Below the pieces are notes generated by a model. The model was not told where the DNA came from. It saw nothing but the letters and a program-made list of their open reading frames with translations, and did no database searches. Below are positions 28,250 to 45,567 of a stretch of DNA of 64,000 bases, in pieces. A program made the position numbers and the translations under genes. The stretch's first letter is position 1. The number at the start of each line of letters is the position of its first letter. This stretch comes from Dyella lipolytica (GTDB lineage: Bacteria; Pseudomonadota; Gammaproteobacteria; Xanthomonadales; Rhodanobacteraceae), in the NCBI RefSeq assembly GCF_030160075.1, contig NZ_BSNQ01000009.1, positions 120,295-184,294 of the forward strand. Direction: 5' to 3'.

Positions 28250-29620
28250 TTACGTAGCGGCAGTCTGCGGAAGGATCAGAGTGACTCGCAGGCCACCGTC
28301 TTCGCGGTTGGCGAGCGCGATGCGGCCGCCGTGCGCCTCACTGATCTCGCGCGCCAGCGCCAGACCCAGGCCGGTGCCGGAGCGCTTGGTGGAATAGAAC
28401 GGCAGCAGCGCCTGTGCCAACACGGCTTCGCTCATGCCTGGACCACGATCACCGACTTCGATGCGCAGCTCGTGCCCGATCAGAGTCAACGACAAGGTCA
28501 CGCCCTCGGGCGCGCTGCCCGATTCGTGCGCGTTCTTGACGAGATTGATCAGCACCTGTTCGATCTGCACCGGATCGAACCAACCCGGCTGTGTCGGCAC
28601 ATTGCCCTGCAATTGAAAACGGCAATGCAGCGCCAATGCATCCAGGAAGGGCTTCCATTCCACCGCTGCCAGACGGGGCGCGGGCAATTTGGCAAAACGT
28701 GCATAGCCGTCGATAAAGCCATGCAAATGACGAGCACGTTCGCCGATGGTGGCGAACACGCTGGGCAAGCGCTGCACATCGCCACGCCGCGCCAGTTCGG
28801 CACCGGAGTGCGCGAGCGAAGAAATCGGCGCCAGCGAATTGTTCAATTCGTGACTGACTACGCGGATCACGCGCTTCCAGGCGGCCACTTCCTGCCGCGA
28901 CAGTTCACGTGTCATGCGTCGAAACAGCTGCAAACGGTGCGGCCGTCCTTGCAGGCGGAACGCACGCTGCGAGAGATGGAAAGTTTCCTCGCTACCGTCC
29001 ATCTCCACGCTGAAAAGGGCGTCTTCGGTAGCCTCGGTCGCCTTGCGCAGCGCTTCGGGTGCGTCCTCAATCAAGGTGCCGAAATGCAGGCCGTTGAGGC
29101 TGCGGCCTTCATTGAATAAATGCCTGGCCGCGATATTCGCATAGGCCACGCGACCACCGGAGTCGGTCAGCACCAGTGCTACCGGCGTATTTTGCACGAC
29201 GGTATCGAGCAGCAGTTCGCGTTGCGCAAGATTCTGTCGCTGTTCGCGCAGCGTCTGGCCCAGTTCGTTATGCACGCGGATCAGATCGCCCAGCTCGTCA
29301 CGACGATCGAGCGCGATGGAAATGCTGAAATCGCCATCGCGGTAACTGGCCACTGCACCTTCCAGCGCGCGCAGCAGGCGCTTGACCGGCTCCATCACCA
29401 TATGGCCGAGCCACCATGACAAAGGCGCCAACACGATCGCGCAGATCACTATCGCTTCGGCACGGTCAGGAGTGGAGATCTTCAGGCCCAGGCTCTCGTG
29501 CATCCACTTCAGGATCTGCGGCAACGGCCAGCCGGTAACGCCGGCATATACCAACGCGCCGATCAGCGCCGCCAGGGCAAGCAAGATGGTCAGGCGCCCC
29601 TCCAGCGACCTCAACCGCAT
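28250..29620 (-). CDS. NtrY-like membrane sensor histidine kinase
   Basis: A 456-residue kinase with two membrane segments (about 10-30 and 54-74) enclosing a very short periplasmic loop of about 22 residues, then HAMP, a PAS domain ([20 protein letters not shown]), the phosphoacceptor His in [20 protein letters not shown], and an HATPase domain with [10 protein letters not shown] and [12 protein letters not shown]. The HELNNSLAP form is typical of kinases paired with NtrC-type regulators. The short loop suggests sensing in the membrane or cytoplasm. Its partner is encoded 151 bases upstream. Confidence 0.9.
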
Positions 29621-29771: not shown

Positions 29772-31115
29772 TCAGGTCTGCGAGATCAGCCCGTACCGCT
29801 CCATACGCCGATACAGCGCCTGGCGCGACAAGCCTAGTGATTGCGCAGCGCGACTCACCACCCCCTCGGCCTTGTGCAACGCCGACTCCACCAGTTCGCG
29901 ACTCGGCTCGTCGAGGTTTCGCACCGCTGCCGCTCCCGCCTGTTGCGGAAGGTTGAGCTGCTCGGGCGTGATCGGACCTGCGCCGGCCAGCAGCGCGGCG
30001 CGCTCGATCGCGTTCTTCAACTCGCGCACATTGCCCGGCCATGAGTACGTCAGCAGGGCTTCGCGCGCAGCGTCGTTGAGTTGCGCGCGCCCGGCCAGAA
30101 AATGCTCGGCCAAGGGAAGAATGTCATCGATGCGCTCGGACAACGGTGGCAGATTGACGTCGATCACGTTGAGGCGATAGTACAGATCTTCGCGGAACGT
30201 ACCCGCGCGTATCATCGCCTTGAGGTCGGCATTGGTCGCACTGAGCACACGCACCTTCACCTTACGTGTACGACCGGAGCCCAGTCGTTCGAATTGGCCG
30301 GTTTCCAGCACGCGCAGCAGCTTCATCTGACCGGGCAACGGCAGGTTGCCGATCTCGTCCAGAAACAGCGTGCCGCCATCGGCCAGTTCGAAGCGCCCTT
30401 CGCGGGCCTTGTTGGCGCCCGTGTAGGCACCCGCTTCCGCGCCGAACAACTCCGCCTCGATCAGCTCACCCGGCAACGCGCCGCAGTTGACCGCGATAAA
30501 CGCCCCGCCGCGCACCGCCGAGTTGGCATGCACGATCGCCGCAATGCGTTCCTTACCGGCACCGTTGGGGCCGGTGATCAGCACCGGCACGTCCGAGCGG
30601 GCGACCTGACAGGCCAGGTCCAGCGTGCGCGCCATCGCCTCGGAGGCGAACACCAGCCCGTCCAGATCGTATTTGCGCTGCAGCGCTTCCCGGCGCTTGC
30701 GACGCTCCTGCCGGTTGCGGTTCACCTCGCGGGTGGACTCGGACAGCTCCAGCAGATTCTCGACCGTCGCCAATAACTTGGAGTCGTCCCAGGGCTTGGC
30801 CAGATAGTCGGCCGCGCCGGCCTTCACCAGTTCCACCGCGGTCTCCAGATGTGTCCAGGCCGTGAGAAGAATCACCGGCAGGTCCGCATGACGCTGGCGA
30901 ATGGCACGGAATAGTTCGACCCCCTCCTCGCCCGAGGTGGTGTCGGCCGTGAAGTTCATATCCTGAATAACCACATCCACGGCCTGGCGCTCCAGCATCG
31001 CCAGGCCCTCATCGGGCGTCAGCGCTGACAGAGGCTTCACATCGTGCAGCGAAAGCAACAGGGACAGCGCCTCGCCCACGGCCGGGTTATCGTCAATGAT
31101 CAGTACAGTGCGCAT
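29772..31115 (-). CDS. Sigma-54-dependent NtrC-family response regulator
   Basis: A 447-residue activator with a receiver domain (DD pair at 7-8, acceptor Asp in VVIQDMNF, Lys in LAKPWDD), an AAA+ domain (Walker A ITGPNGAGKE, sigma-54 contact loop GAYTGA in place of GAFTGA, Walker B GGTLFLDEIGNLP, WPGNVREL) and a Fis-type HTH (AAQSLGLSRQALYRRMERYG). The start at 31115 gives MRTVLIIDDNP. The probable target is the sigma-54 promoter of the adaptor gene at the other end of this cluster. Confidence 0.93.
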   Translation of the reverse strand: MRTVLIIDDNPAVGEALSLLLSLHDVKPLSALTPDEGLAMLERQAVDVVIQDMNFTADTTSGEEGVELFRAIRQRHADLPVILLTAWTHLETAVELVKAGAADYLAKPWDDSKLLATVENLLELSESTREVNRNRQERRKRREALQRKYDLDGLVFASEAMARTLDLACQVARSDVPVLITGPNGAGKERIAAIVHANSAVRGGAFIAVNCGALPGELIEAELFGAEAGAYTGANKAREGRFELADGGTLFLDEIGNLPLPGQMKLLRVLETGQFERLGSGRTRKVKVRVLSATNADLKAMIRAGTFREDLYYRLNVIDVNLPPLSERIDDILPLAEHFLAGRAQLNDAAREALLTYSWPGNVRELKNAIERAALLAGAGPITPEQLNLPQQAGAAAVRNLDEPSRELVESALHKAEGVVSRAAQSLGLSRQALYRRMERYGLISQT

Positions 31116-31344
31116 TCGTTTTCTACACATGCAGACATGGATGCTGCTCCCACCCAAAAGGTTGCCATGACCGCCGGGCTACGTATATGAAAATCGATCA
31201 CACCGAGCGCATTGCACCCTCTCGAGCGTACGGCCTAGGCGTTTGAAGCATGTCCTGTTAACGCTATCTCGCCTCCATTGGCTTCTCCCGCCCCCGCATC
31301 CCGAAGTCGATATAACAAGCGCTCCGGCCTTGTTGCCACCTATC

Positions 31345-32517
31345 TCATCGATCGCGCGCGATCTCGGCCGGAGCGGTGTCGCCCGCCTTCTGCGCCAGTG
31401 GCAACGCGTCCGTCACCAGATGCATCAGGAATCGTCCCGGCTGTTCCTCCATCACCATATGCGCGGAGTCGGCAAAGACCACCAGATGCTTCGACGGTGC
31501 CTGGATCTTGTCGAACCACTGTTCGGCGAGCTCGTGCGACGTGGTCTCGTCGTGCTTGCCGACGAACAGAATCACCGGGCAATCGAAACGCGTAACGTTG
31601 TCAAAGTCGACTGCGAGCAATGGCTGCATGAGATGCTGGATCGTAAACATGCTGCCCTTGTCGATCGCGTCGAGATCTTTTTCGCTGTAATCGGGCGAAA
31701 TTTGTTCGGCCTCCGAGACGTAATGGTAATTCTCGCGCCCATAGGTCAATCCACCGAACTTCATCTCCCATTTGCTGCGCACGCCGAGGCGCTGCAGGGT
31801 CAACGCCTTGGTACCCGGATAGGGCCCGATGGCCTGCAGCTCACGAATGGCCTCGGTGTCTCCACTTGCCTTGGCACTGCGCAGGGCAAAGTCGTACCCC
31901 ATCTCCTCGTTGCGACGCACATTCACCACCTGCCCCACACCGATATACGCATAGAACCAATCAGGGTGCTGCTGCGTAAGGCGCGTACCCAACACCGTGC
32001 CCCAGGAATGACCCAGCACGAAGATTTTCTGTTTGCCGTAGTGCTGACGCAGGTACTGCACTACCTGCGCGGCATCGTCCGTCATCCCCTCGATGGTCAT
32101 GCCCTGCGCCATCTGCGCCTCGGTATTGGCGGCGTAGGTTTTGCCGGCCCCGCGCTGGTCCCACTGCACCACCGTGAAATAGTCTTCCCACGGCGATTGA
32201 TAGGTGTAATCCGACGGCATACTCGGCGATGCCGGGCCGCCATGCAGCACCAGCAGGATGGGATTGCGACGATCCTTGCCCCGAATCGAAAGCCATTGAT
32301 CGATGCCGCCGATCGGCACTTTTATCAATTCCTCCACACCGTTGGGCGAGACGATGTGGCGACTGTCGGCGATGGTTCGGGTTACGTCAGCACGAGACAG
32401 GGTCGACGACTTGTCTGGCGCCGCAGCATCAGGCTTCGCTGCGTCGCTGGCTGAAGCAACAAGGTTTACCGACAACACCAGTAGGCTTCCCATCGCCATA
32501 GTGCGTAATGCCTTCAT
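31345..32517 (-). CDS. Exported S33-family alpha/beta hydrolase (prolyl aminopeptidase-like)
   Basis: A 390-residue protein with a signal peptide (hydrophobic 7-20, cleavage near ASA). The fold motifs are HGGPASPS (oxyanion), GHSWGTVLG (nucleophile Ser), GKHDETTS (Asp) and DSAHMVMEEQPGRF (His), the pattern of proline iminopeptidases of family S33. It is the last gene of the permease cluster, 36 bases after permease B4, with its own AGGAGA site. A periplasmic peptidase or esterase acting on the transported or sensed compound is plausible but unproven. Confidence 0.85.
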   Translation of the reverse strand: MKALRTMAMGSLLVLSVNLVASASDAAKPDAAAPDKSSTLSRADVTRTIADSRHIVSPNGVEELIKVPIGGIDQWLSIRGKDRRNPILLVLHGGPASPSMPSDYTYQSPWEDYFTVVQWDQRGAGKTYAANTEAQMAQGMTIEGMTDDAAQVVQYLRQHYGKQKIFVLGHSWGTVLGTRLTQQHPDWFYAYIGVGQVVNVRRNEEMGYDFALRSAKASGDTEAIRELQAIGPYPGTKALTLQRLGVRSKWEMKFGGLTYGRENYHYVSEAEQISPDYSEKDLDAIDKGSMFTIQHLMQPLLAVDFDNVTRFDCPVILFVGKHDETTSHELAEQWFDKIQAPSKHLVVFADSAHMVMEEQPGRFLMHLVTDALPLAQKAGDTAPAEIARDR

Positions 32518-32553: not shown

Positions 32554-33783
32554 TCACACAGACCTTGTTGCCACAACAGGCGGTACCGCTGCGGCACGAA
32601 GTGCAGGTCCAAGCACCGCCGCCTGACCAATCAGCCATAGCAATCCAGCGCCCACTGGAAAATAAAACGCCGGCATGCGCGGAAGTTCGTAATGCACGAT
32701 CAGAAATAGATTGATGCCGTAGGCCATGACCATACCCAGCGCGATGCCGATGGTGGTCAGCAGAAAGTTCTCGGTCTGGAAGTAATGCAGGATGTTGTTG
32801 CGTGTGGCACCCAGCGCGCGGCGCACACCGATGCTGCGATTGCGCTGCGCCACCCAGAAGCTGGCAAGACCCACGATGCCCAATGCAGTAACGATCAGCA
32901 AAGCAAGGCAAACACCCACCAGGATGCCGGCCATCGCGCGATCGTCCTGGAAATAATCCCGGCGCAGATGGTCCACCGTGCCTTTATCCAGCACCAGGCG
33001 GTTGGGATCGAGCCCTTTCAACTTTGCCAACGCCGTCTTCAAGACCTGCTCGCGATCTTGCGGTGCGCAGCGAATCACATAAACCGCACCTTGCGTAATG
33101 CTCACGCGAATCGGATTGATGACACTGTATTGCGCGCCTTCTCCAAACTGATTGGGCCGCACCAGTTGCGCCGTCACGCCGATCACGGTCAAGGGAATAC
33201 CCTGGCCTACGTAAATCTGCTTGCCCAATGGATTTTGTCCAGGCCAAAGCCGCTCGGCAACGGCGCGGGTAACCAGAGCCTGTTTGGGCACCGCATTGAG
33301 GTCGCCTTTGCCCAAGGCTGCAAAGACATCGGTGATATCGCGATATTCTTCGGGGCGGAAATCGCGTCCAGCAACAAGCTGGACGCCAAGCGTGGACAAC
33401 AAGTCTTCGCCCAAATACTGCGCGGCGTTGATCGTATCCTTTTGCGGCATCAGATCGGCCCTGATACCCATGTTCGACGATGATCCGCCGAAGGGAATCT
33501 GGTTGGTCAGCGTGACGGACTTGACCCCGGCAATCTCTTTCAACGCCGCGATATCGGCCGCGGCGCGGGCCATGGCATCCGGGCGGCTGCCAATATAGGC
33601 CAGATTGACATACACCAACTCATGCTCGGCAATGCCTGAGGCGATGTCCATGCGCTCAATACGCTGACCGATCAGGAAGATCGCATTGCAGATGATCGCG
33701 CAGGTCAACGCGATTTGCATGATCAACAGGCTCGCCGTGAACTTGTGCCGACGCAGCGTGGAAAGAATGGGTCGTATGTCCAT
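32554..33783 (-). CDS. MacB/FtsX-type ABC permease, subtype B (B4)
   Basis: 409 residues. MDIRPILSTLRRHKFTASLL leads into membrane segment 1 (about 17-38, ending in the subtype-B motif CNAIFLI), then a MacB-PCD periplasmic domain with YLGEDLLSTLGVQLVAGRDF, and three C-terminal segments with SIGVRRALGATRNNILHYF in the cytosolic loop. The end, PALRAAAVPPVVATRSV, is closest to B3. The ATG lies one base after the stop of A4, the tightest spacing in the array. No ATPase domain is attached. Confidence 0.93.
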   Translation of the reverse strand: MDIRPILSTLRRHKFTASLLIMQIALTCAIICNAIFLIGQRIERMDIASGIAEHELVYVNLAYIGSRPDAMARAAADIAALKEIAGVKSVTLTNQIPFGGSSSNMGIRADLMPQKDTINAAQYLGEDLLSTLGVQLVAGRDFRPEEYRDITDVFAALGKGDLNAVPKQALVTRAVAERLWPGQNPLGKQIYVGQGIPLTVIGVTAQLVRPNQFGEGAQYSVINPIRVSITQGAVYVIRCAPQDREQVLKTALAKLKGLDPNRLVLDKGTVDHLRRDYFQDDRAMAGILVGVCLALLIVTALGIVGLASFWVAQRNRSIGVRRALGATRNNILHYFQTENFLLTTIGIALGMVMAYGINLFLIVHYELPRMPAFYFPVGAGLLWLIGQAAVLGPALRAAAVPPVVATRSV

Positions 33784-33784
33784 G

Positions 33785-35089
33785 TCAGTTCCCCTTCAAC
33801 TGCAAGGCCGGCGTGATTCGACAGGCCCGCCAGGCCGGCAACAATCCCGCTAGCAAACTTGCGCTTACGGCAAGCGCAAACGTCATCAACAGCATGGTGA
33901 CATCCATATGCGCCAACTTGGCGTAATTGGCGGGCTGCTGACGCACCAGCCACAAGCCGAGCAATGCAAGCATCCAGCCGCTCAAACCGCCAGCGATACC
34001 AATCACGCCCGACTCCATCAGCAACTGCCCGAACACTGCTCGCTGCGATGCGCCAAGCGCACGTCGCACGCTAAGCTCGCCGGAGCGACGCATGAATTTG
34101 GCCAGCATCAAACCCACCGTATTGATCAGGCAGACGGCGAGGAAGCCCAGTGCAAGCCAGGTCTGAAGAACAGTATCGCTGGGCACTACTTTGATGTAAT
34201 CGAGCCACTGCATCATGGTACGCAGACGGATATTCGGCGGTCGCATGAATCGCCCCGCCGTGCGCTGATCTTGCGAGTAATGCATGAGAAAATCCCTGTA
34301 CGCGGCCGCGCTGGCTGGACTATCGAGCTGCACCCAGAACTGCAGCCAAGTGCAATTATTCGTCTCAAGATGATCAGGGTCACCGCCACCATTGCCCCAG
34401 CAATCCGTGGAACCGTCATGCTCCATCAGCAGGTCCCGCGATGTCGTCAAGGGAAGGTAGACATCTTCGTCGCTCGCATAGCGTCCCATGTACCACTCGT
34501 AGAAGTGCGGATTGGGATGCCAGTCGCCCAACACGCCGACGATGCGGAACGCGGATTCCTGCAAGCGCAGGATCTGCCCCACGCTGTTCTTGCCGCCGAA
34601 CAGTTTGTCGTTCAGCGCCGACGTGATCACGACCACGCGGGCCTTGCCATTGTCCTCAGCCTCGCTCCAGCCAGTACCGTATTGGAATGGCACGCCGAAC
34701 ATCGGAAAAAAGTCGGTGCTGGTGTATAGCGCAACAGCCTGAAAGGGATCGATGCTCGATTGCGTTGGCTGCAAAGGAACCATGCCGCCGGTCATCAGTG
34801 CCTGCCGCGTCGCTCGTTTCGAGTGCAGCAGATACATGCCATCCGTCCATGTCAGCTGCTCGGGCGGTTCGATTCCCGGCGTATAGTCTTTCATGTCCAG
34901 GGGATCGAGTTGCGGGTAATAGATCGATCCACTGCGGCCCGGCAGCGGATCGCCCGACAGCACGTGCAGCACAGTCAGCGTGGTCATGCTAGCGCCGATA
35001 CCCAGCGCGATCGCCAACACCATTAGTGCAGTAAGTGCCCGATTGCGCTTGAGGCTTCGCAACGCGAGATCAAAGTAATAAGTAAGCAT
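33785..35089 (-). CDS. MacB/FtsX-type ABC permease, subtype A (A4)
   Basis: 434 residues starting MLTYYFDLALRSLKRNRALT; the frame is open further upstream, but this start aligns with the other A subunits. Segment 1 spans about 18-42. The periplasmic domain carries two Cys 15 residues apart, before TWLQFWVQLD. The cytosolic loop reads ELSVRRALGASQRAVFGQLL, the least conserved of the four A forms. It ends GLLPAWRACRITPALQLKGN. It resembles A3 most (SGDPLP and YPQLD/YPQVD segments). Confidence 0.93.
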   Translation of the reverse strand: MLTYYFDLALRSLKRNRALTALMVLAIALGIGASMTTLTVLHVLSGDPLPGRSGSIYYPQLDPLDMKDYTPGIEPPEQLTWTDGMYLLHSKRATRQALMTGGMVPLQPTQSSIDPFQAVALYTSTDFFPMFGVPFQYGTGWSEAEDNGKARVVVITSALNDKLFGGKNSVGQILRLQESAFRIVGVLGDWHPNPHFYEWYMGRYASDEDVYLPLTTSRDLLMEHDGSTDCWGNGGGDPDHLETNNCTWLQFWVQLDSPASAAAYRDFLMHYSQDQRTAGRFMRPPNIRLRTMMQWLDYIKVVPSDTVLQTWLALGFLAVCLINTVGLMLAKFMRRSGELSVRRALGASQRAVFGQLLMESGVIGIAGGLSGWMLALLGLWLVRQQPANYAKLAHMDVTMLLMTFALAVSASLLAGLLPAWRACRITPALQLKGN

Positions 35090-35115
35090 GGCGATCCTTC
35101 GGATTCTCTCTTCGC

Positions 35116-36336
35116 TTATGCCGCTTGCGTGGCGACCACCGGTGGTACGGCGGCGGCACGCATGGCGGGGCCCAGCACGGCAAGCTGACCAAGTAACCAC
35201 AGTGCAGCAGCACCCCCGGGCAGGTAATACCAAGGCATGCGGCTTATTTCGTAGTGCTGCATCAGATACAGATTGATCGCAAAGGCCAGCCCCATGCCGA
35301 TAATCACGCCCACGGTGCTAAGCAGGAAATTTTCGGTACGGAAGTAACGCAGGATGTCACCGCGCGTCGCCCCCACTGCGCGACGGATGCCGATCTGCCG
35401 CCGACGCTGGCCGACCCAGAAACTAGTCAGACCGACAATGCCAAACGCGGTTACCGCCAGCATCACCAAACAGACAAGTACCAACGTCCACACCATGCTG
35501 TTGGTGTTGGCGAAGTATTTGCGGCGCGTGCTGTCGTAGGTAGCGCCAGTTACCACTGCTGCAGGATTGAGCTCCTGCAGTTTCTGCACGGCTTCCTTGA
35601 GGATACGGTCGCGGTCCGCTGGCGCGCTGCGCAGAATGTAGTTGCGGAGCGCTGGATCGGGTGCGACCGGATAGTAGGTGCTGTAGTAGGACTTTTCCTC
35701 GTTCTCTGTGGCCACAAACGGTCGCAGCACATCCGCAACGACACCGATCACGGTGAAATAATCGGGTTTGGAGTAAAACGTCTTGCCCAAGGCCGACTGC
35801 CCAGGCCAAAACTGCTTTGCCACCGTTTCGGTAACGATCACCACATGGGTCGACGGCAATGCCGCAGTTCCGATGGTGCTGTCTGCATATTCCGCCGCAT
35901 TGAAGAAGCGACCCTCACGCAACTGCAAACCCAGCGCTTTCTCGGCACCCTCGCCCAGGAAATACAACGTGACGTTGGTTCTGTGTTGATCGCTAAGGGA
36001 TGTATCTGGTGTCAGCCCGAAGCTCCAGCCCCAGTTGTTATGGCTCAGCGGCACAGAGCTGGTGACGGCAGCCTCCTGCACGCCGGCGATGGTGCGCAGC
36101 GCCGCGATGTTGCGGGGAATATCGCTAGCCGCGAGCTTGGGATCCGTACCTTGAAGCTTAATCGTAGTGATGCCTTGTTCGTCGATCGCATTCGGCAGGT
36201 AGATGTCTCCCACCCTCCGACTGATCATGAACACGGCATTGCAGAGCACGGCGCAGGCCAGTGCGATCTCCAGCACGATCAGCAGTGTCGGAATGCGATG
36301 CTTGCGCAAGCTAGCGACGATCGGCAGAACGTCCAT
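35116..36336 (-). CDS. MacB/FtsX-type ABC permease, subtype B (B3)
   Basis: 406 residues from the ATG at 36336, which aligns with the B4 start; an in-frame GTG at 36342 is also possible. The N-terminus MDVLPIVASLRKHRIPTLL leads into a membrane segment ending CNAVFMI. The periplasmic part has FLGEGAEKALGLQLREGRFF, the most diverged version of this B motif. The loop reads QIGIRRAVGATRGDILRYF and the end PAMRAAAVPPVVATQAA. It lies seven bases after A3. Confidence 0.93.
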   Translation of the reverse strand: MDVLPIVASLRKHRIPTLLIVLEIALACAVLCNAVFMISRRVGDIYLPNAIDEQGITTIKLQGTDPKLAASDIPRNIAALRTIAGVQEAAVTSSVPLSHNNWGWSFGLTPDTSLSDQHRTNVTLYFLGEGAEKALGLQLREGRFFNAAEYADSTIGTAALPSTHVVIVTETVAKQFWPGQSALGKTFYSKPDYFTVIGVVADVLRPFVATENEEKSYYSTYYPVAPDPALRNYILRSAPADRDRILKEAVQKLQELNPAAVVTGATYDSTRRKYFANTNSMVWTLVLVCLVMLAVTAFGIVGLTSFWVGQRRRQIGIRRAVGATRGDILRYFRTENFLLSTVGVIIGMGLAFAINLYLMQHYEISRMPWYYLPGGAAALWLLGQLAVLGPAMRAAAVPPVVATQAA

Positions 36337-36343
36337 GATCACC

Positions 36344-37648
36344 TCAGGCGGCCTTAAGTTGAGGAGCGGGTGCCATCACGCAGGCGCGCCAGGCAGGCAA
36401 CAGGCCCGCGATGAGGCTGGCAACGAGCGCCACGACAAAAGTGAACAGAAACATCTGGATGTCCAAATGAGCGAGGCTGGCGTAGTCGGCAGGTTGATGA
36501 CGAACGCCCAATAGCCCTAGTTCGGCAAGCAGCAAGCCAATTAAGCCACCGGCCAACCCGACAATCCCCGCCTCCACCATGAACTGCGCGAAAATCGCCC
36601 TTCGTGTGGCGCCCAGTGCGCGGCGCACGCCGATTTCGCGTGAACGACGCAAACATTTCGCGAGCAGCAATCCCACGGTGTTGACAACGCAGATCAGCAA
36701 GAAACCGAAAGCAAGATAAACCTGCAACCGCGCATCGTTGGGAACGACTTGTTGATCGCTTAGCCAGCCCATCAGGCCGAGCAGCGCCGTGTCGGAACGC
36801 TTGAAGCGCCCCAATGCAATCTGTTGCTTCACGTAGCCGTCGAGGAACGACTTGTAGTCGGTGACGGCGGCACTGTCGCCCAACTCCACCCACATGCCTA
36901 ACCATTCACAGGGCGCGAGCTCCAGATGCTCTACATCGGTGACCGAGGCATAGCACTCGGTGTCCTCCGGACCCATGTCCATCGAACGTGCCGTCTGCAG
37001 CGGCATAAACACCCCATCGCCATCGCCGTAGTCGCGACTGCCGAGATCCTGTGTGTAGAAGCGGGGCTGCGGTGCCCAATGCTTCAATACGCCAACGATT
37101 CTGAAATCGTGATCGTTGATGCGTATGACCTTGCCTACGCTGTTGGCGCCGCCGAATAGCTTGTCGTTGAGAAAATCCGCTATCACTACCAATGCCGCGC
37201 GGTTCTCGTCGTCATCGGCGGTCCAGCCACCGCCATATTGGAACGGCGCGTCGAACATGCCGAAGAAATCCGCCGTGGTCATCACGCCATCGCTGAAATA
37301 AGGATGTTCGTTGGCATGCTGAGGAATGATTTTGGCCTGGGTGAGCGCCATAACTGCCTGTCGCTTGGCGCGACGGGCATGCAACAGGTTCATCGCATCG
37401 GGATAGGCCATGGTGGCGTCGGGCTTCGTCTGCCCTGCCACATACCCATCCAACGTATTGGGATCCACCTGCGGATAGAACAGCCGTGCACTCTTTTGCG
37501 GCAGCGGATCGCCCGACAACAGTCTCAGCACTGTGAGCGTGGTGATCGACGCTCCGATGCCCAACGCCAGCGTCATGATCATCAGCGCGGTGAGAATCTT
37601 GTTGCGCTTGAGGCTGCGCACAGCAAGATCGAGATAATAACCGAGCAT
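36344..37648 (-). CDS. MacB/FtsX-type ABC permease, subtype A (A3)
   Basis: 434 residues starting MLGYYLDLAVRSLKRNKILT. The periplasmic domain includes FFGMFDAPFQYGGGWTADDD and FRIVGVLKHWAPQPRFY, both shared with the other A forms, and a Cys pair 14 residues apart before EWLGMWVELG. The cytosolic loop is EIGVRRALGATRRAIFAQFM. It has an alternative GTG start one codon upstream. A 48-base gap separates it from B2, longer than the gap to its own partner B3. Confidence 0.93.
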   Translation of the reverse strand: MLGYYLDLAVRSLKRNKILTALMIMTLALGIGASITTLTVLRLLSGDPLPQKSARLFYPQVDPNTLDGYVAGQTKPDATMAYPDAMNLLHARRAKRQAVMALTQAKIIPQHANEHPYFSDGVMTTADFFGMFDAPFQYGGGWTADDDENRAALVVIADFLNDKLFGGANSVGKVIRINDHDFRIVGVLKHWAPQPRFYTQDLGSRDYGDGDGVFMPLQTARSMDMGPEDTECYASVTDVEHLELAPCEWLGMWVELGDSAAVTDYKSFLDGYVKQQIALGRFKRSDTALLGLMGWLSDQQVVPNDARLQVYLAFGFLLICVVNTVGLLLAKCLRRSREIGVRRALGATRRAIFAQFMVEAGIVGLAGGLIGLLLAELGLLGVRHQPADYASLAHLDIQMFLFTFVVALVASLIAGLLPAWRACVMAPAPQLKAA

Positions 37649-37696
37649 CACCTACCCCTTATTCAGTGAATCTCCGTCCCAAGAAAGAACAACGCG

Positions 37697-38950
37697 TCAC
37701 ACTGACCGCGTTGCCACCACAGGCGGCACGTTGGAAGCGCGTCGTGCCGGCACGAACACCGCGGCCTGCCCCAGTAACAACACGACCACCAGGCCACCGA
37801 GCACATAGACGATGGGCATGCGGCTCATTTCAAAATTCTTGATCAACACCATGTTGAGGCCGATGGCCAACGCAATGCCGATCAATGCGCCGATACCCGC
37901 TATCAGCAGGTTTTCCAGCTGGAAGTAATGCAGGATGTCGATCTTGCGTGCGCCCAGTGCACGACGCACACCGATCTGACGATGTCGCTGTCCCACCCAA
38001 AAGCTGGTCAGGCCGACGATGCCGGCAGCGGTGACCGCCAGCAGGATCAAGCAAACAATTCCCATCAACACCGCCATGCCGATATCGGCGCGATAGGCGT
38101 CGCTACGAATGTCCGCAAACGATTTCACGCTGTCGTCGTCGAGCACGCGCATGGGGTTGGTCTTGTAAAGCGTCGGCGTCACCGCGCGCATGGCTGCTTC
38201 CAGACGGCCCGGCTTGGTGCGTATCAGATAGCGCGAAAAGTTCGCGTTCAAACGGATCGGCGCGATGGTCGTGTCCCAGAAAAAGCCACTGGACCAACTA
38301 CTGGTCGACGGCACCTGCAAGCGTTCGACCTCGCCGACGATGGTGGTCGGCATGGTGTCGCCATTGAAATAGACCGCCTTGCCGACTGCATCGCCTTTCG
38401 GGAACAGCTTGTCGCCCAACGCCTTGCTGACTATGACCAGGGACGGCTGACGTTGATCGCGCATCGCACGGTTCACCACATCGGCGGCGGTGAAATTACG
38501 GCCCGCGACAAGGCGGACACCCAACGTGGCCAACTCATTTTCGTCACCGAAGTAGAAAGCGGTGCGTGCAGTACCTCCGCGCAGATCCGAGCCCGGTTTG
38601 AGTGCAACCGACCCGGTCCAGCTGGAATTGAGCAGAGGCACTGAATTCGTTGGCGTCACGGATTCCACATCCGGCATCGCACGCAGGGCCGCCAGGTCCT
38701 CGCGCTCCAGTGCATCGAGTTTCGCAATGCTGTCTGGATCGTCGCCGCTCGGCGCACCCACCCATTGCTGGGTCACCAGGAACAAATTGGCTTCGTCTAG
38801 GCCGCTTGGCCTACGCACATTGTCTACACGGGTATAAATGATGAAGATCGCGTTGCAGACAATGGCCAAGGTCAGCGCGATCTGCATGGCGATGAGGATA
38901 ACGCCGGCTTTGTGTTTGCGTAATGCAGCAATCATCGGATGCACACTCAT
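37697..38950 (-). CDS. MacB/FtsX-type ABC permease, subtype B (B2)
   Basis: 417 residues starting MSVHPMIAALRKHKAGVILI, with membrane segment 1 ending CNAIFII. The periplasmic domain has FGDENELATLGVRLVAGRNF. The C-terminal three segments contain QIGVRRALGARKIDILHYFQ and the end PARRASNVPPVVATRSV. Identity is visibly highest with B1 (ALRxHKAG, LIAxQIALTLAIVCNA). The frame is open upstream into A2; the start was set by alignment with the other B forms. Confidence 0.93.
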   Translation of the reverse strand: MSVHPMIAALRKHKAGVILIAMQIALTLAIVCNAIFIIYTRVDNVRRPSGLDEANLFLVTQQWVGAPSGDDPDSIAKLDALEREDLAALRAMPDVESVTPTNSVPLLNSSWTGSVALKPGSDLRGGTARTAFYFGDENELATLGVRLVAGRNFTAADVVNRAMRDQRQPSLVIVSKALGDKLFPKGDAVGKAVYFNGDTMPTTIVGEVERLQVPSTSSWSSGFFWDTTIAPIRLNANFSRYLIRTKPGRLEAAMRAVTPTLYKTNPMRVLDDDSVKSFADIRSDAYRADIGMAVLMGIVCLILLAVTAAGIVGLTSFWVGQRHRQIGVRRALGARKIDILHYFQLENLLIAGIGALIGIALAIGLNMVLIKNFEMSRMPIVYVLGGLVVVLLLGQAAVFVPARRASNVPPVVATRSV

Positions 38951-38961
38951 GGCATCGCTCC

Positions 38962-40284
38962 TCAATTCGACTTGAGCTGCAGCGCGGGTTGCACGCGCGA
39001 GGCTCGGAAAGTGGGATAAATCCCCGCCAGCATCGTCGCAATCACAGCGACCAGCAGGGTAAGAACCAGCAAGCTGAGATTCACATGCGCCAGCGTGGCG
39101 ATTTCCTTGGGCAACACCCAGCCCACGCTGATCACACCGGCCCAGGTCAAGAACAGACCGAGCAGCCCACCGGTCAATCCGACAATGCCGGCTTCGATAA
39201 GAAACTGCGTATAGATGGCCAGACGCGGTGCCCCCAAAGCCCGGCGCACGCCGATTTCCGAACTGCGGCGCAGGAACTTCGCCAGCAGCAGCCCGGCCGT
39301 GTTCACCAGACATACGACCAACAGACCCAACGCGACTACCAGCGATATTTTGGTGTCGCTCGGCACGACGTGCTGGGAATCCAGCCATGCCGGCAGATCG
39401 CGCAGGCGGTTGTTCAACGGCCAGTTGAAACGCCCCGCCTGTTTCTGGTCACGGAAATAGCCGTCCAGATAATCCTTGTATGCCGCCACAGCCGCTTTGT
39501 CGTCCAGTTCGGCCATGTAAGCGATCCAGACGCAAGAGGATTTCTGCAACCCAACGAAGCCTGATTCCTTCGGGATCTCCGAGCAATTGGTATTGCCGTC
39601 ATTCGTCATGCCGACGTCGATGGCGCGCTGGAACGGAATGAACACGTCCTCCTGATCGGTGGTAAACCCTCCCGTATTCACTACATCGTAGAATTCCGGC
39701 TTGGGATTCCAGTTGTCCAGCACGCCGACTACGCGGTAATCCTTGCCGTCGATATCAACCGTTTTGCCGACGCTATTGGCGCCTGCAAACAGTTTTTGAT
39801 TGAGCTTGCTGTTGAGCACTACCACCGCAGCGCGTTGCTCGTCGCTATCGGCGCTCCAGCCGCTGCCGTATTTGAACGGTGCATCAAGCATCGCGAAAAA
39901 TTCGCTATAAACGGCATGGCCTCCGACGCTGACCGGATGCTTGCTCGGATCGGGCGGTACGATCGATGGTGAAATGCGATACAACGCCGACTGATATTTG
40001 GCGCGGTGCGCACGCATCAGGGCAACGGCATCGGTGTAGTCCATCGCATCCGGCGGCTCACCGTTGTCGCCGTCGAGGCGACCTTTGGGCCCCCAGATAT
40101 CGATCTGCGGCACAAAAAGCTGCGAGGACTTCCATGGAATCGGATCGCCCGATACCGCACGAAACACCGAATAGGTAGTCATCGAGGCGGCTACGCCGAA
40201 GCCGATGGCCAAAACCATCAGCAAGGTAAGGCCAGGACTTCTTTTGAGACTTCGTACGGCCAGATCAACGTAATAGCCCAGCAT
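38962..40284 (-). CDS. MacB/FtsX-type ABC permease, subtype A (A2)
   Basis: 440 residues starting MLGYYVDLAVRSLKRSPGLT. After segment 1 it has FRAVSGDPIP and SSQLFVPQIDIWGPKG, shared only with A1. The periplasmic Cys pair is 16 residues apart, ahead of VWIAYMAELD. The loop is EIGVRRALGAPRLAIYTQFL and the end GIYPTFRASRVQPALQLKSN. B2 begins 11 bases downstream. Together with B2 it forms one repeat unit of the array. Confidence 0.93.
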   Translation of the reverse strand: MLGYYVDLAVRSLKRSPGLTLLMVLAIGFGVAASMTTYSVFRAVSGDPIPWKSSQLFVPQIDIWGPKGRLDGDNGEPPDAMDYTDAVALMRAHRAKYQSALYRISPSIVPPDPSKHPVSVGGHAVYSEFFAMLDAPFKYGSGWSADSDEQRAAVVVLNSKLNQKLFAGANSVGKTVDIDGKDYRVVGVLDNWNPKPEFYDVVNTGGFTTDQEDVFIPFQRAIDVGMTNDGNTNCSEIPKESGFVGLQKSSCVWIAYMAELDDKAAVAAYKDYLDGYFRDQKQAGRFNWPLNNRLRDLPAWLDSQHVVPSDTKISLVVALGLLVVCLVNTAGLLLAKFLRRSSEIGVRRALGAPRLAIYTQFLIEAGIVGLTGGLLGLFLTWAGVISVGWVLPKEIATLAHVNLSLLVLTLLVAVIATMLAGIYPTFRASRVQPALQLKSN

Positions 40285-40344
40285 GGGGCACCTCCCTCAT
40301 TTTGTTGATGACCCTCTTCCGAGGGCTCCTTTTTTAGTTCGTGT

Positions 40345-41577
40345 CTACGCCGGTCGTGTCGCCTCCACCGGCGACACACGTGATGCGCGCAGTGCCGGAG
40401 CGAATACCGCGCCCTGGCCCAGCAATATCAACAGCACCACACCACCCAGCACGTAGACCAACGGCAACAGCTGAGAGGAAAACTGCTTGACCAGCCACAG
40501 GTTGAGCCCGAATGCCAGGAATATCCCCATGGCTATACCCGCGAGACTGATCAGCAAGTTTTCGGTGAGGAAGTAATGAAGAATGTCGCGATGCGTGGCT
40601 CCCAATGCACGGCGCACGCCGATCTGACGGCGACGCTGTCCGACCCAGAAACTCGTGAGCCCGACAATGCCCGCACCGGTGATGGCCAGCAGCACTAGAC
40701 AGATGATGCTCATTAGGACGGCCATGCCGCGATCGCTTTCAAAGGCAAGGTGACGGATCTGCGCGAAACTCTGGACGCCGTCCTTGGGGCTGATCATGCG
40801 CATGCGGTTTTCCGCATACAAAGCCTTCGGTGCTTCGCGCATAGCGGCATCGAGTTGACCAGGCCTGGCGCGCACGATGTAGAACACACCCCATGGCTGG
40901 GCGTCGCGCACCGGCCACACCAACGATTCATTCGCGAACGGCACACTCCATGTCGAAACATCCGATCGATGCAAGCGATCAACGATGCCGATGATGGTGG
41001 TTGGCTTATCGCTCATGGAATAGAAGGGCTTTCCGAGCGCGTCGCCATTCGGGTACAGCTTGTCGGCCAAGGCCTTGCTGACAATGGTGACGGGCGGGAC
41101 GAAATTCTGGCGCAACCCCATGTTCTGCACTTCGTCGGCGTGAAAATCCCGCCCTGCGATGAGCTTGACACCGAGCGTACGAAGAAAATGTTCGTCGCCG
41201 AGATAAATCGATGAGTCCGTGGTCGGCGAAATCTGATCGGGCTTCATCGTGATGAAGTTGTCCCAGCCGCCGCCGCGCAGTGGGTAGCTATTGCTCTGCG
41301 TAGCATCGGCCACGCCGGCGAGTTGCCGCAGTGTCGCGAGATCCTGCTGTACCTTTGCCGCGGCTTCCTCGGTGGAGTACTGCTCTCCCCACAGGTTCTC
41401 GATAACGAACAGATTGGGTTCGTCGACGCCAGTGGGCTCAGAGATATGCGCCAAACGCTGATGGATGATGAACAGCGCATTGCAAACGATCGCCAGTGTC
41501 AAAGCAATCTGCAACGCGATCAGTAGAGTACCGGCCTTGTGGCGACGCAGGGCAGCGAGAATGGGATGGATCTGCAT
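40345..41577 (-). CDS. MacB/FtsX-type ABC permease, subtype B (B1)
   Basis: 410 residues. Membrane segment 1 is at about 16-38 (IALTLAIVCNALFII), the periplasmic domain at about 40-283 with YLGDEHFLRTLGVKLIAGRD, then segments at about 285-310, 340-364 and 372-396. The loop QIGVRRALGATHRDILHYF between segments 2 and 3 is the usual coupling region to the ATPase. It ends PALRASRVSPVEATRPA. It follows A1 by 16 bases; the next unit begins after 60 bases. Confidence 0.93.
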   Translation of the reverse strand: MQIHPILAALRRHKAGTLLIALQIALTLAIVCNALFIIHQRLAHISEPTGVDEPNLFVIENLWGEQYSTEEAAAKVQQDLATLRQLAGVADATQSNSYPLRGGGWDNFITMKPDQISPTTDSSIYLGDEHFLRTLGVKLIAGRDFHADEVQNMGLRQNFVPPVTIVSKALADKLYPNGDALGKPFYSMSDKPTTIIGIVDRLHRSDVSTWSVPFANESLVWPVRDAQPWGVFYIVRARPGQLDAAMREAPKALYAENRMRMISPKDGVQSFAQIRHLAFESDRGMAVLMSIICLVLLAITGAGIVGLTSFWVGQRRRQIGVRRALGATHRDILHYFLTENLLISLAGIAMGIFLAFGLNLWLVKQFSSQLLPLVYVLGGVVLLILLGQGAVFAPALRASRVSPVEATRPA

Positions 41578-41593
41578 GCTGTTCTCTCTCGCC

Positions 41594-42904
41594 TCAGTTG
41601 GATTTCAATTGCCAGGCCGGCTGCACCTGAGCGGCACGCCAAGCGGGATAGAACGCAGCTGCTACCGTGGCAAGGATGGCCACCACCAACGTCAGCCCCA
41701 CTAGCGAAACATCCAGATGTGCTAACCGCGCGATGTCCGCGTTGAACAACAAACCTACGCCGGACATACCTATCGACGTCAGCAGCAAGCCCAGTCCACC
41801 TCCAGCCAGACCGACGGCCGCGGCTTCAATCAGGTATTGCGAATAAATTTCCCGGCGTGTCGCACCCAGGGCGCGACGTACGCCGATCTCGCCCGCGCGG
41901 CGCATGAATTTGGCCAGCAGGAGTCCGATCGTGTTAACCAGACAGATCACAAAGAAGCACAGCGCTACGACCATTGAAATGCGGCTTTCGGGTGGCACGA
42001 CATTCATCTGATCGAGCCATGCCATGACATCGCGCAGGCGTACATTAGGCGGCCAGGCGAAACGTCCGACATGCTGCTGGTCGGCGGCGTAGCCTTCGAG
42101 AAAGCGGTGATAGCGCGCGACATCGTTCGCCGTGTCCAGCTCAACCCACGGCATTAGCCATACGCAATTGCTTTGTAACCATTCGTCCCAGCCGGTGAAG
42201 GTCAGATTTCCGCGGCAACTGTTTCTGCCCGATGAGTCCGTTTTCAAATCGAGCATGCGGTTGAGCAGCACATAGAAATCCGGCGGATCTTGAAATGCAC
42301 TGTCACTCCATACCGCGTAGAAGCGTGGCGAGGGATCCCAGTGCTTGGCGACACCGACAATGCGGTAGTCGTGTCCCGACAAGGTGATTTCTCTTCCCAC
42401 GCTGTTGGCACCGCCGAACATGCGCTGATTGAATTCCTCAGTGAGCACGACATCCGCGGCGCGTCTGTCGTCATCGTTGGCGTTCCAACCATTGCCGTAC
42501 AGGAACGGCACTTCAAACATTGAAAAGAAATCGCCCGTAACGGCGTAACCATTTATCGAAACCGGAATGCTGTTGACGTCATGGGGAAGCGCAGAAAGCA
42601 TGACCGGATAAAGCAGCGTCTGGCGCGTAGCTTGATGCGCCCTCATCACCGCCATCGCATCGATATAGCTCAAGGCACCTGACGGCTCGCCCTTCTCGTT
42701 TTGCTGCGGCCCCCAGTTATCGATCTGCGGTACAAACAGCTGCGAGGATTTATCCGGTATCGGATTGCCGGACACCGCACGGAACACCGAGTAGGTGATC
42801 ATCGACGCGGCCACACCGAAACCGATAGCCATCACCATCAGCGCAGTGAGCACTGGGTTGCGCTTGAGACTGCGTACACCGAGCTGTAAGTAATAGGCGA
42901 ACAT
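41594..42904 (-). CDS. MacB/FtsX-type ABC permease, subtype A (A1)
   Basis: 436 residues, first permease after the ATPase gene. Membrane segment 1 is at about 18-42, a periplasmic MacB-PCD-like domain at about 43-305, then segments at about 310-332, 358-380 and 400-422. The domain has DYRIVGVAKHWDPSPRFY and a Cys pair 16 residues apart before VWLMPWVELD. The coupling loop is EIGVRRALGATRREIYSQYL. Unlike true MacB it has no fused ATPase, so it must use the separate ATPase encoded upstream. Confidence 0.93.
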   Translation of the reverse strand: MFAYYLQLGVRSLKRNPVLTALMVMAIGFGVAASMITYSVFRAVSGNPIPDKSSQLFVPQIDNWGPQQNEKGEPSGALSYIDAMAVMRAHQATRQTLLYPVMLSALPHDVNSIPVSINGYAVTGDFFSMFEVPFLYGNGWNANDDDRRAADVVLTEEFNQRMFGGANSVGREITLSGHDYRIVGVAKHWDPSPRFYAVWSDSAFQDPPDFYVLLNRMLDLKTDSSGRNSCRGNLTFTGWDEWLQSNCVWLMPWVELDTANDVARYHRFLEGYAADQQHVGRFAWPPNVRLRDVMAWLDQMNVVPPESRISMVVALCFFVICLVNTIGLLLAKFMRRAGEIGVRRALGATRREIYSQYLIEAAAVGLAGGGLGLLLTSIGMSGVGLLFNADIARLAHLDVSLVGLTLVVAILATVAAAFYPAWRAAQVQPAWQLKSN

Positions 42905-42991: not shown

Positions 42992-43714
42992 TCAACCGCG
43001 CACTTGGCCGGCTGCAGCGGTGTAGGCCGTGTGGAAACGCGGATCTTCGGCGAGATCCACCACTTGGCCGTCGATGATGTGCACGTTGCGCTGCGCACGC
43101 GCGGCCAGTTCCGGATCGTGCGTGACCATCACGATGGTCGCGCCTTCGCGATGAATTTCTTCGAGCAGCTCCAACACGCCGCGCGCCATTTGCGTATCCA
43201 GGTTGCCGGTCGGTTCGTCGGCGAGCAGCAGACGCGGGCTGCCGGCCAATGCGCGAGCAATCGCGACGCGCTGTTGCTGACCACCGGAGAGTTCGGCCGG
43301 ATAGTGCTTGGCGCGCGACGCCAGACCCACACGCTCCAACGCACCCATGATGCGCTCTTTGCGTTCAGGCGCTTTCATGCCCCGATAACGCAACGGTACT
43401 TCGACGTTGTCGAATACGTTGAGATCGGGAATCAGGTTGAAGGCCTGGAAGATGAAACCGATCTTCTCGTTGCGGATCTTCGAGCGCGCGTTGTCGTTGA
43501 GCTGACTGACTTCGATACCGTCGAGGTGGTATTCGCCGCCGGTGAAGGTTTCCAGCAAGCCTGCAATGGTGAGGAAGGTCGTCTTGCCCGAACCGGACGG
43601 ACCCGTCACGGCAACGAACTCGCCTTCCTTCACATCGATATTGAAATCGCGAAGCGCATAGGTCTCCACCACTTCGGTGCGGTAGACCTTGGACAGGTGA
43701 GTCATCTTCAACAT
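42992..43714 (-). CDS. ABC transporter ATPase, LolD/MacB type
   Basis: A 240-residue stand-alone ATPase with Walker A GPSGSGKTT, Q-loop FIFQAFNLIPDLNVFDNVE, signature LSGGQQQRVAIARAL, Walker B LLLADEPTGNLD and the switch His in MVTHDPELA. These are the features of the MacB/LolD mechanotransmission subfamily. It is the only ATPase gene in a cluster of eight permeases. The start at 43714 (MLKMTHLSKVY) was chosen over an upstream in-frame start because it matches the family N-terminus. Confidence 0.95.
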   Translation of the reverse strand: MLKMTHLSKVYRTEVVETYALRDFNIDVKEGEFVAVTGPSGSGKTTFLTIAGLLETFTGGEYHLDGIEVSQLNDNARSKIRNEKIGFIFQAFNLIPDLNVFDNVEVPLRYRGMKAPERKERIMGALERVGLASRAKHYPAELSGGQQQRVAIARALAGSPRLLLADEPTGNLDTQMARGVLELLEEIHREGATIVMVTHDPELAARAQRNVHIIDGQVVDLAEDPRFHTAYTAAAGQVRG

Positions 43715-43847: not shown

Positions 43848-45119
43848 TCAGCGGCTGATTACGACGCGCTGCGCGCCTTTGAAGTTGTCGGTGCCCGAAA
43901 TCACGATGCTGTCGCCTTCTTTCAGACCATCGAGGATCTCCACCTTGTCGATGCTGCTTTCACCCGCGCGGATCGGCGTCTTGGTAGCGATACCGTCGCG
44001 CACCACGTAGGCATAGCTGCCGCCGGATTCGTCGACGAATGAACCGCGCTGCACAGTGAGTACGTTCTCGCGATGGTCGAGCAGAATGCGTACCGACAAG
44101 CGCTGGTTCTGACGCAGCTGCTTGGGCGTCTCGCCATCGAAGCGCACGCGCGCGGCCACTTCGCCGTTCACCACTTCCGGCGAGATCGCACTGACGATGC
44201 CCTTCCAGTTGTGGTCGTTGCCGCTGATCTCGCCGTTCATACCGATAGCGAGGTCGCGTGCGAAGCTCTCCGGCACTTTCACTTCCACTTCGAGTGCGGA
44301 GAGATCGATCACGCTGAGCAGTTGCGCATCCTTCGCCACCGTGGCGCGCTCGGCGATGAACAACTGACCGACTTGGCCGTCGACGGGCGAGCGCACATTG
44401 AGGTTGTCGACCTGGCGTTGCAGATCCTGCACCAGCAGCACCTGCCGATCGTGCGCCAGCTTCTTCGCCTTGATATCGAAGCTCTCGCTGTTGCTATCGA
44501 GACCGCGATCGTCCTCGGCGTGCTCCAGGGTGATCTTCGCTTTATCGAGCGTATCGTGGGCGCGGTCCACGTCCATCTCCGATACGCCGCCCTGGCTGTA
44601 GGCCTTTTGATAGCGGTCGAGATCGCGTGCAGCCGTCTGCTCGTCGATCTTCGCGTTGTCGTACGCCTTTTGCATCTGCGAAGTCTGTTTGCGCGCGTTG
44701 ATCTGTGCGCGCAGGTAATCGACCTGCATGGCATCGGCGTTGGATTGTTCCTGGGCGAGCTTGTTGAGAAGCTCCGGGCTGTCGATCACCGCCAGCACCT
44801 GTCCCTTCTTCACGGTGTCGCCGGCATGCACTTTCATCGTGACCGCGCCGCCGTAGGTCGCGTACAGCGTCGGACTTACTGCGGCGACAACCTGGCCTTC
44901 GGCGGCGATATCGCGCACAAAGGAGCCGCGCTGCACAGTGGCGAAGGCCAGTCGCGACGCGCTGACCGAGGCATCCGCCGAAAACAAACGTGCGATGCCC
45001 GGCAGGATGAGGGCCAGTACGACCACGGCCGCCAAGCCACCACCGATCCACAGCAGTTTTCGCTTGCGGCTGGGCTTGACCTGGATCAGGCGGTCCTGGG
45101 CTGAGGTGTCGCGAATCAT
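43848..45119 (-). CDS. HlyD/MacA-type periplasmic adaptor protein
   Basis: A 423-residue membrane-fusion protein: cytoplasmic basic N-terminus, one membrane anchor (about 23-45), a split lipoyl domain (VTMKVHAGDTVKKGQVLAVID and NVRSPVDGQVGQLF), an alpha-helical hairpin between them (about 115-235), then beta-barrel and membrane-proximal domains. It should link the permeases to an outer-membrane TolC-like channel, which is not encoded here. It is the first gene after the sigma-54 promoter, with AAGGA seven bases before the ATG. Confidence 0.93.
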   Translation of the reverse strand: MIRDTSAQDRLIQVKPSRKRKLLWIGGGLAAVVVLALILPGIARLFSADASVSASRLAFATVQRGSFVRDIAAEGQVVAAVSPTLYATYGGAVTMKVHAGDTVKKGQVLAVIDSPELLNKLAQEQSNADAMQVDYLRAQINARKQTSQMQKAYDNAKIDEQTAARDLDRYQKAYSQGGVSEMDVDRAHDTLDKAKITLEHAEDDRGLDSNSESFDIKAKKLAHDRQVLLVQDLQRQVDNLNVRSPVDGQVGQLFIAERATVAKDAQLLSVIDLSALEVEVKVPESFARDLAIGMNGEISGNDHNWKGIVSAISPEVVNGEVAARVRFDGETPKQLRQNQRLSVRILLDHRENVLTVQRGSFVDESGGSYAYVVRDGIATKTPIRAGESSIDKVEILDGLKEGDSIVISGTDNFKGAQRVVISR

Positions 45120-45163: not shown

Positions 45164-45179
45164 AGCAATCCGCGTGCCA
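45164..45179 (-). promoter_or_regulatory. Sigma-54 (-24/-12) promoter of the transporter cluster
   Basis: Read on the minus strand the sequence is TGGCACG-CGGA-TTGCT, a full match to the consensus TGGCACG-N4-TTGCW. Transcription would start near 45153, about 34 bases before the adaptor ATG. The rpoN gene and an NtrC-type regulator gene are both in this window. Confidence 0.85.
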
Positions 45180-45245: not shown

Positions 45246-45290
45246 TGTCCGCGGACACTCCGCCGGACAGATGGACAGGCGCTGCGGACA
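45246..45290. promoter_or_regulatory. Probable activator-binding repeats (UAS)
   Basis: The perfect palindrome TGTCCGCGGACA (45246-45257) is followed by further GGACA half-sites at 45265, 45273 and 45286. GCGGACA recurs with a 33-base period (45251 and 45284), three helical turns. They lie about 93-137 bases upstream of the predicted start, the normal place for NtrC-type activator sites. Binding is inferred. Confidence 0.6.
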
Positions 45291-45360: not shown

Positions 45361-45567
45361 TTATTTGGTGAGGATCAGCTTGCCGTTGCGCGTGAGCCGC
45401 AGGTGGTACTCGCTACCTTGATGTTGAATCACGAGCTCACGCTCGCCAGCCAGCAATCGCTGACTGGAGATACGCCGCACGGATGACACGGTCGCGGCCT
45501 CGTCCACGCTCGGCAACATCGGCAACGGCGAGGGGCGGGAAAGAGTTAGCGTGCTGGGGAGGGACAT
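45361..45567 (-). CDS. hemP: Hemin uptake protein HemP
   Basis: A 68-residue HemP/HmuP-family protein with the conserved C-terminal half SSQRLLAGERELVIQHQG then YHLRLTRNGKLILTK. In other proteobacteria HemP is required for, or activates, haem receptor expression. A Fur box lies 30 bases upstream of the start, so iron repression is expected. No haem receptor gene is adjacent. Its stop codon lies 14 bases from the last GGACA repeat upstream of the transporter operon. Confidence 0.87.
   Translation of the reverse strand: MSLPSTLTLSRPSPLPMLPSVDEAATVSSVRRISSQRLLAGERELVIQHQGSEYHLRLTRNGKLILTK

Follow-up and report, generated by a model that had tools for sequence, protein, structure and literature searches.

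Type VII ABC systems are not restricted to export: lipid extraction and export-independent signalling are also among their possible functions. Among the described permeases of the MacB type, MacB and FtsX are homodimers, and LolCE and YbbP are known heterodimeric or fused permeases with 4+4 helices (PMC5985334). A type VII permease acting with a periplasmic hydrolase is represented by YbbAP-TesA (PMC12646458). ATPases that serve several permease sets encoded elsewhere are known for importers, such as MceG with YrbE1-4A/B (PMC9947336) and MsmK with the CUT1 importers (PMC8579813); in the searches made, none was described for a type VII exporter. Literature searches for permease arrays, ADOP function and the regulon found no description of the system presented here, and no paper on a paired array with one ATPase, which a previous sequence-only reading of this locus had also taken to be uncharacterised.

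Organization of the permease locus

The window, which is the whole stretch of 64,000 nucleotides analysed, belongs to the Dyella lipolytica genome (4.05 Mb, 9 contigs). It shows a locus with the gene order adaptor, ATPase, A1-B1, A2-B2, A3-B3, A4-B4, S33 hydrolase, sigma-54 response regulator and histidine kinase:

43848..45119, minus strand: periplasmic adaptor (MFP, 423 aa), with HlyD_D23/RND_mfp matches
42992..43714, minus strand: ABC ATPase (240 aa), the single dedicated ATPase; best NCBIfam match DarD, below cut-off
41594..42904, minus strand: permease A1 (436 aa), homologue of the ADOP N half
40345..41577, minus strand: permease B1 (410 aa), homologue of the ADOP C half
38962..40284, minus strand: permease A2 (440 aa)
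37697..38950, minus strand: permease B2 (417 aa)
36344..37648, minus strand: permease A3 (434 aa)
35116..36336, minus strand: permease B3 (406 aa)
33785..35089, minus strand: permease A4 (434 aa)
32554..33783, minus strand: permease B4 (409 aa)
31345..32517, minus strand: alpha/beta hydrolase of the S33 aminopeptidase type; lies 36 bp behind B4 and seems to carry a signal peptide
29772..31157, minus strand: sigma-54-dependent response regulator (receiver, AAA+ and Fis-type HTH)
28250..29620, minus strand: sensor histidine kinase (HAMP, HATPase_c)

The strict alternation of A and B in eight same-strand permease genes was confirmed, together with their coordinates, lengths and gaps. Genes of pairs 1 to 4 are separated by 16, 11, 7 and 1 bases, the pairs by 60, 48 and 26, and all eight genes start with ATG. 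In a Pfam profile search, the eight permeases scored above the cut-offs for FtsX and MacB_PCD, and with an FtsX domain, a MacB-type periplasmic domain and four TM helices they belong to the type VII (MacB/FtsX) ABC permeases. MacB was the best PDB fold match for the AF2 models of A1 (pLDDT 85) and B1 (pLDDT 92), and these monomers were similar to MacB, LolC/E and YbbAP in the fold search; a viral fold search found no relative. By BLASTP, the window permeases show identities of 42-54% between A proteins and 37-52% between B proteins over the full length, whereas A aligned with B only weakly or over part of the length, chiefly in the C-terminal domain, which supports two real subtypes.

A HemP-like small ORF with a Fur-box-like sequence upstream is found at 45361-45567, just before the array promoter. 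The closest named relatives are Dyella species, with A1 identities of 79% in Dyella dinghuensis and 78% in D. monticola. A metagenome contig labelled Candidatus Eremiobacteraeota (L001) shows 91% identity to the window A1 and is probably a mis-binned Dyella-like contig.

Relationship of A and B with ADOP

The NCBIfam ADOP model (TIGR03434) has 803 positions and a cut-off of 622 bits. All A proteins of the window match positions 5-401 and all B proteins match positions 410-801, so that each permease covers one half of the model, with about 150-196 bits against the 622 needed. When A and B were placed in a tree with the N and C halves of fused ADOPs found in other Gammaproteobacteria, {A,N} separated from {B,C} with a support of 0.988; therefore, the A and B roles are older than the gene split or fusion. 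Since a fused ADOP chain holds one A-type and one B-type half, it gives the best support in this study for an A-B heterodimer. Fused ADOPs in tandem, in 3 and 2 copies, are found with an adaptor, an ATPase and a sigma-54 regulator in two loci of other Gammaproteobacteria (L313 and L314).

Co-evolution was analysed on 420 pairs. Couplings between TM2 of A and TM1 of B, an expected contact, account for five of the top 200, versus 0-2 in seven re-pairings; however, the mirror contact between TM1 of A and TM2 of B was not enriched, and the antiparallel diagonal was no better than in the controls, hence this signal is suggestive only. The heterodimer proposed in the sequence-only reading thus receives indirect support, from the fused homologues and from a weak co-evolution signal, and A with B is likely to form a heterodimeric permease. 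The contrast it drew with the homodimeric MacB holds true but is not new, since heterodimeric or fused permeases with 4+4 helices are known (LolCE, YbbP; PMC5985334).

Inheritance and age of the A-B pairs

Across 13 genomes, the count was 137 A genes and 138 B genes; every A gene has a B gene directly downstream (137/137), and a single B is alone. The survey for unpaired genes in related genomes, suggested to challenge the pairing, found essentially nothing else. The A-B order also recurs in the 28 stitched arrays, 27 of them without a full-length orphan, the other being an array of G040 with one extra B. Distances in the A and B trees of 179 pairs are correlated (r=0.898), and when B was re-paired within arrays 1000 times the correlation fell to a mean of 0.04 and a maximum of 0.141. 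Given this congruence, the pairs are inherited as units. The alternative that A and B form homodimers, or mix between pairs, the pair being only a unit of co-expression, can point to the homodimeric MacB and FtsX (PMC5985334) and to the fact that our models are monomers; we find it very unlikely in view of the fused A-B homologues, the strict pairing and the tree congruence that re-pairing destroys.

The pair had also been proposed as the duplicating unit, and here the trees separate two things: inheritance as a unit stands, and local or recent duplication does not. Of 179 A and 179 B permeases, just two A and no B have their nearest relative inside their own array, and the four pairs of the window represent four old types (a, c, d and b) found across genera. 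Ordinary tandem duplication giving redundant, dose-raising copies would suit a copy number that varies from 4 to 12 across array-bearing genomes, but the pairs that share an array are old types with identities of about 40-50% and almost never each other's nearest relatives, which makes it a highly improbable explanation; recent tandem duplication was rejected on these trees. Judged by their phylogeny, the pairs are ancient versions that have been maintained separately, and not recent duplicates.

Between pairs of one array, the periplasmic domains are 29-40% identical and the coupling loop, which faces the ATPase, 67-75%. As the periplasmic domains are the most divergent part, a separate cargo for each pair is probable. 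Divergent periplasmic domains with a similar loop would fit different cargoes on one motor, although this pattern is not specific to it: loop conservation was dropped as a proof of ATPase sharing because orthologues show high loop conservation too.

Distribution and size of the arrays

An A homologue was found in 184 of the 198 sampled genomes of Rhodanobacteraceae. The complete arrays of the family that were examined mostly contain 4 to 12 pairs; smaller ones are a single pair in a genome of the same genus (G017) and 2 to 3 pairs at L047, L037, L055 and L057. A sister family has one array of 4 pairs and another of 5, and outside the family there is usually one pair with adaptor and ATPase, followed in most cases by regulator and kinase. 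Counted per genome, A-B pairs range from 5 to 17 (13 genomes); up to 10 pairs lie outside the array and without ATPase. Thus, of the four-pair array with one ATPase described in the sequence-only reading, the one ATPase was upheld, but four is the low end, as arrays reach 12 pairs and unlinked pairs add to them. The shared sigma-54 regulon, the connection with TolC and the S33 hydrolase had also escaped that reading.

Behind a five-pair array, G040 has one more set of adaptor and ATPase (L155-L156). Two loci (L017 and G157:C44) show a perfect inverted duplication of the array start, probably an assembly artefact.

Sigma-54 regulon

Two elements were located upstream of the adaptor gene:

45246..45257, no strand assigned: palindrome TGTCCGCGGACA, probable enhancer of the sigma-54 response regulator; sole match in the window, 0.03 expected
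45164..45179, minus strand: sigma-54 promoter TGGCACGCGGATTGCT, 60 bp upstream of the adaptor start codon; sole match in the window, 0.11 expected

Of 80 loci, 76 have the palindrome 5' of the adaptor gene (background 1.8% per 400 nt), about 78 bp beyond the sigma-54 site, and 76 have the promoter at the same position (background 0.9%). The operon's own response regulator, which comes after the array in most relatives, would be the protein that binds the palindrome. Within the genus of the window, the combination of both elements is present in 2 to 7 copies per genome, where it precedes the array, unlinked A-B pairs, an S33 hydrolase and small membrane peptides. At least 12 unlinked pairs (L234-L238 and L240-L246) are directly behind it; the unlinked pair of the window genome (L107) has no palindrome and is behind a LytTR-type two-component system.

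The palindrome alone is found upstream of pcm-tolC in 14 of 15 loci of the same genus and in two other genera; for tolC genes outside the operon it is upstream in 16 of 17 loci from three genera. In about 20 loci of other genera, the TolC gene is inside the operon, between the ATPase and A1.

The small peptides of the array regulon are a 28 aa membrane peptide, MKFETIMLNSFFAACIVLCVSTISAMLL (G000:C3:1660449; L198, L201 4588), and a 68 aa membrane peptide beginning with MKFETLILRSLFVACMLVCGLIL (G000:C9:849592; L200, L202 4734). Relatives have both peptides in conserved form, neither matches a Pfam family, and they could be pump modulators or cargo. About 110 bp after the gene of the 28 aa peptide there is a beta-lactamase-family (PF00144) gene (L201 4787-5989), possibly in one operon with it.

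The hydrolase allows another reading, in which the A-B pairs would pull hydrophobic molecules from the inner membrane and pass them to the periplasmic S33 hydrolase with no export, as YbbAP does for TesA (PMC12646458). Its gene is directly after the array, homologues are inside some arrays (G147 and G022) and one is alone behind an array-type promoter in G003 (L239); furthermore, YbbAP is among the fold matches. Nevertheless, adaptor and TolC appear to be part of the system and YbbAP needs neither, many of the arrays examined show no hydrolase, and TesA comes from another hydrolase family, which together render this reading quite unlikely, and we favor an export pump.

ATPase and unlinked pairs

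In each of the 13 genomes, a single ATPase locus reaches 89-100% identity to that of the window, and the next best ATPase is 43-58% identical. Neither ATPase nor adaptor was found near the 12 promoter-bearing unlinked pairs, nor near the other solitary pairs examined; the genomes therefore have several permease sets without their own ATPase, a trait of shared-ATPase transporters of the MceG/MsmK type. With a single close ATPase for 5 to 17 pairs per genome, sharing in trans would be the most economical interpretation, for which MceG and MsmK are precedents.

Against this, the other MacB/LolD-type ATPases of each genome could serve some unlinked pairs. The unlinked pairs might then be sensors, or users of such ATPases, leaving the operon ATPase for the array pairs only. 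In four loci (L107, L059, L062 and L071), a solitary pair without ATPase is beside a LytTR response regulator and a LytS-like kinase, which precede it and recall Bce-type sensing, and these pairs are possibly a sensing version. However, the promoter of the array also stands before 12 unlinked pairs, and the other ATPases reach just 43-58% identity, and we consider this alternative unlikely, preferring an ATPase shared in trans.

A slower evolution of the ATPase was also considered as a proof of multiple partners. Array genomes were compared with three single-pair genomes at comparable adaptor identities (ATPase identity of 93% on average versus 85-88%), and the argument was rejected because three genomes are too few. 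In a nine-pair array, the ATPase is split into two overlapping frames (G070:C1:1066623-1067332), which is either real or a sequencing error.

Proposed exporter and comparison with known systems

Taken as a whole, we regard as probable a tripartite type VII exporter in which ATPase, adaptor and TolC are common to swappable heterodimeric permeases under one sigma-54 regulon. It would be similar to MacAB-TolC, with an obligate A+B heterodimer as permease in many versions: the operon contributes four pairs, and relatives have as many as 12 in the array plus up to 10 elsewhere, all served by one homodimeric ATPase with a single adaptor and a single TolC. The set would be turned on via the palindrome by the histidine kinase and the sigma-54 response regulator. 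By analogy with MacAB-TolC, when the ATPase dimer binds ATP, the periplasmic domains of A and B would shift and push the cargo through adaptor and TolC; each pair probably handles its own cargo, with little change in the ATPase-facing loop. For a more extended version, we see the chances as evenly divided: a modular export pump whose ATPase, adaptor and TolC take up to 17 heterodimeric permeases scattered on the chromosome and largely in one sigma-54 regulon, where the small membrane peptides of the regulon (28 and about 68 aa) would act as pump modulators or be exported as cargo.

If true, one small motor would drive a whole range of export permeases, an export-side counterpart of the shared-ATPase importers, and loss of one ATPase should silence every pair. 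It would also bear on the evolution of efflux range, on permease-ATPase recognition and on the exports of soil- and plant-associated Rhodanobacteraceae.

A and B are akin to the N and C halves of ADOP (TIGR03434), respectively, and tandem fused ADOPs of other Gammaproteobacteria show the same operon layout; unlike ADOP, the window permease is split over two genes and its halves remain far below the cut-off. LolCDE has a separate ATPase, as here, and a heterodimer of two 4-TM MacB-type permeases (PMC5985334, PMC8277102), as proposed for A and B, but it is a single pair without adaptor or TolC, and the window permeases reach 18-28 bits against the 362 of the lolCE equivalog (TIGR02212) and 34 against the 473 of LolC. 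MacAB-TolC has the same permease fold and works with an adaptor and TolC, which may be parts of the pump here too: an adaptor gene is present in the window operon, and a TolC gene is in relatives' operons or with the common palindrome; however, MacB is a homodimer with an N-terminal ATPase fused to the permease, whereas here the ATPase is a separate gene (42992-43714) and the permease would consist of two gene products. The darobactin exporter DarBCD provides the best match of the ATPase (DarD, 256 of 375 bits) and a match of the adaptor (DarC, 85 of 450 bits), both below the equivalog cut-offs, and differs in that DarB is one fused chain. The YbbAP permease of YbbAP-TesA is fused, single copy and has no adaptor or TolC. 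MceG and MsmK serve importers with an unrelated fold, whereas the window system is type VII and its adaptor and TolC are apparently common too. In relation to all these systems, the new point would be the scale: many linked and unlinked heterodimeric permeases, for the most part under one regulon, with a single set of ATPase, adaptor and TolC.
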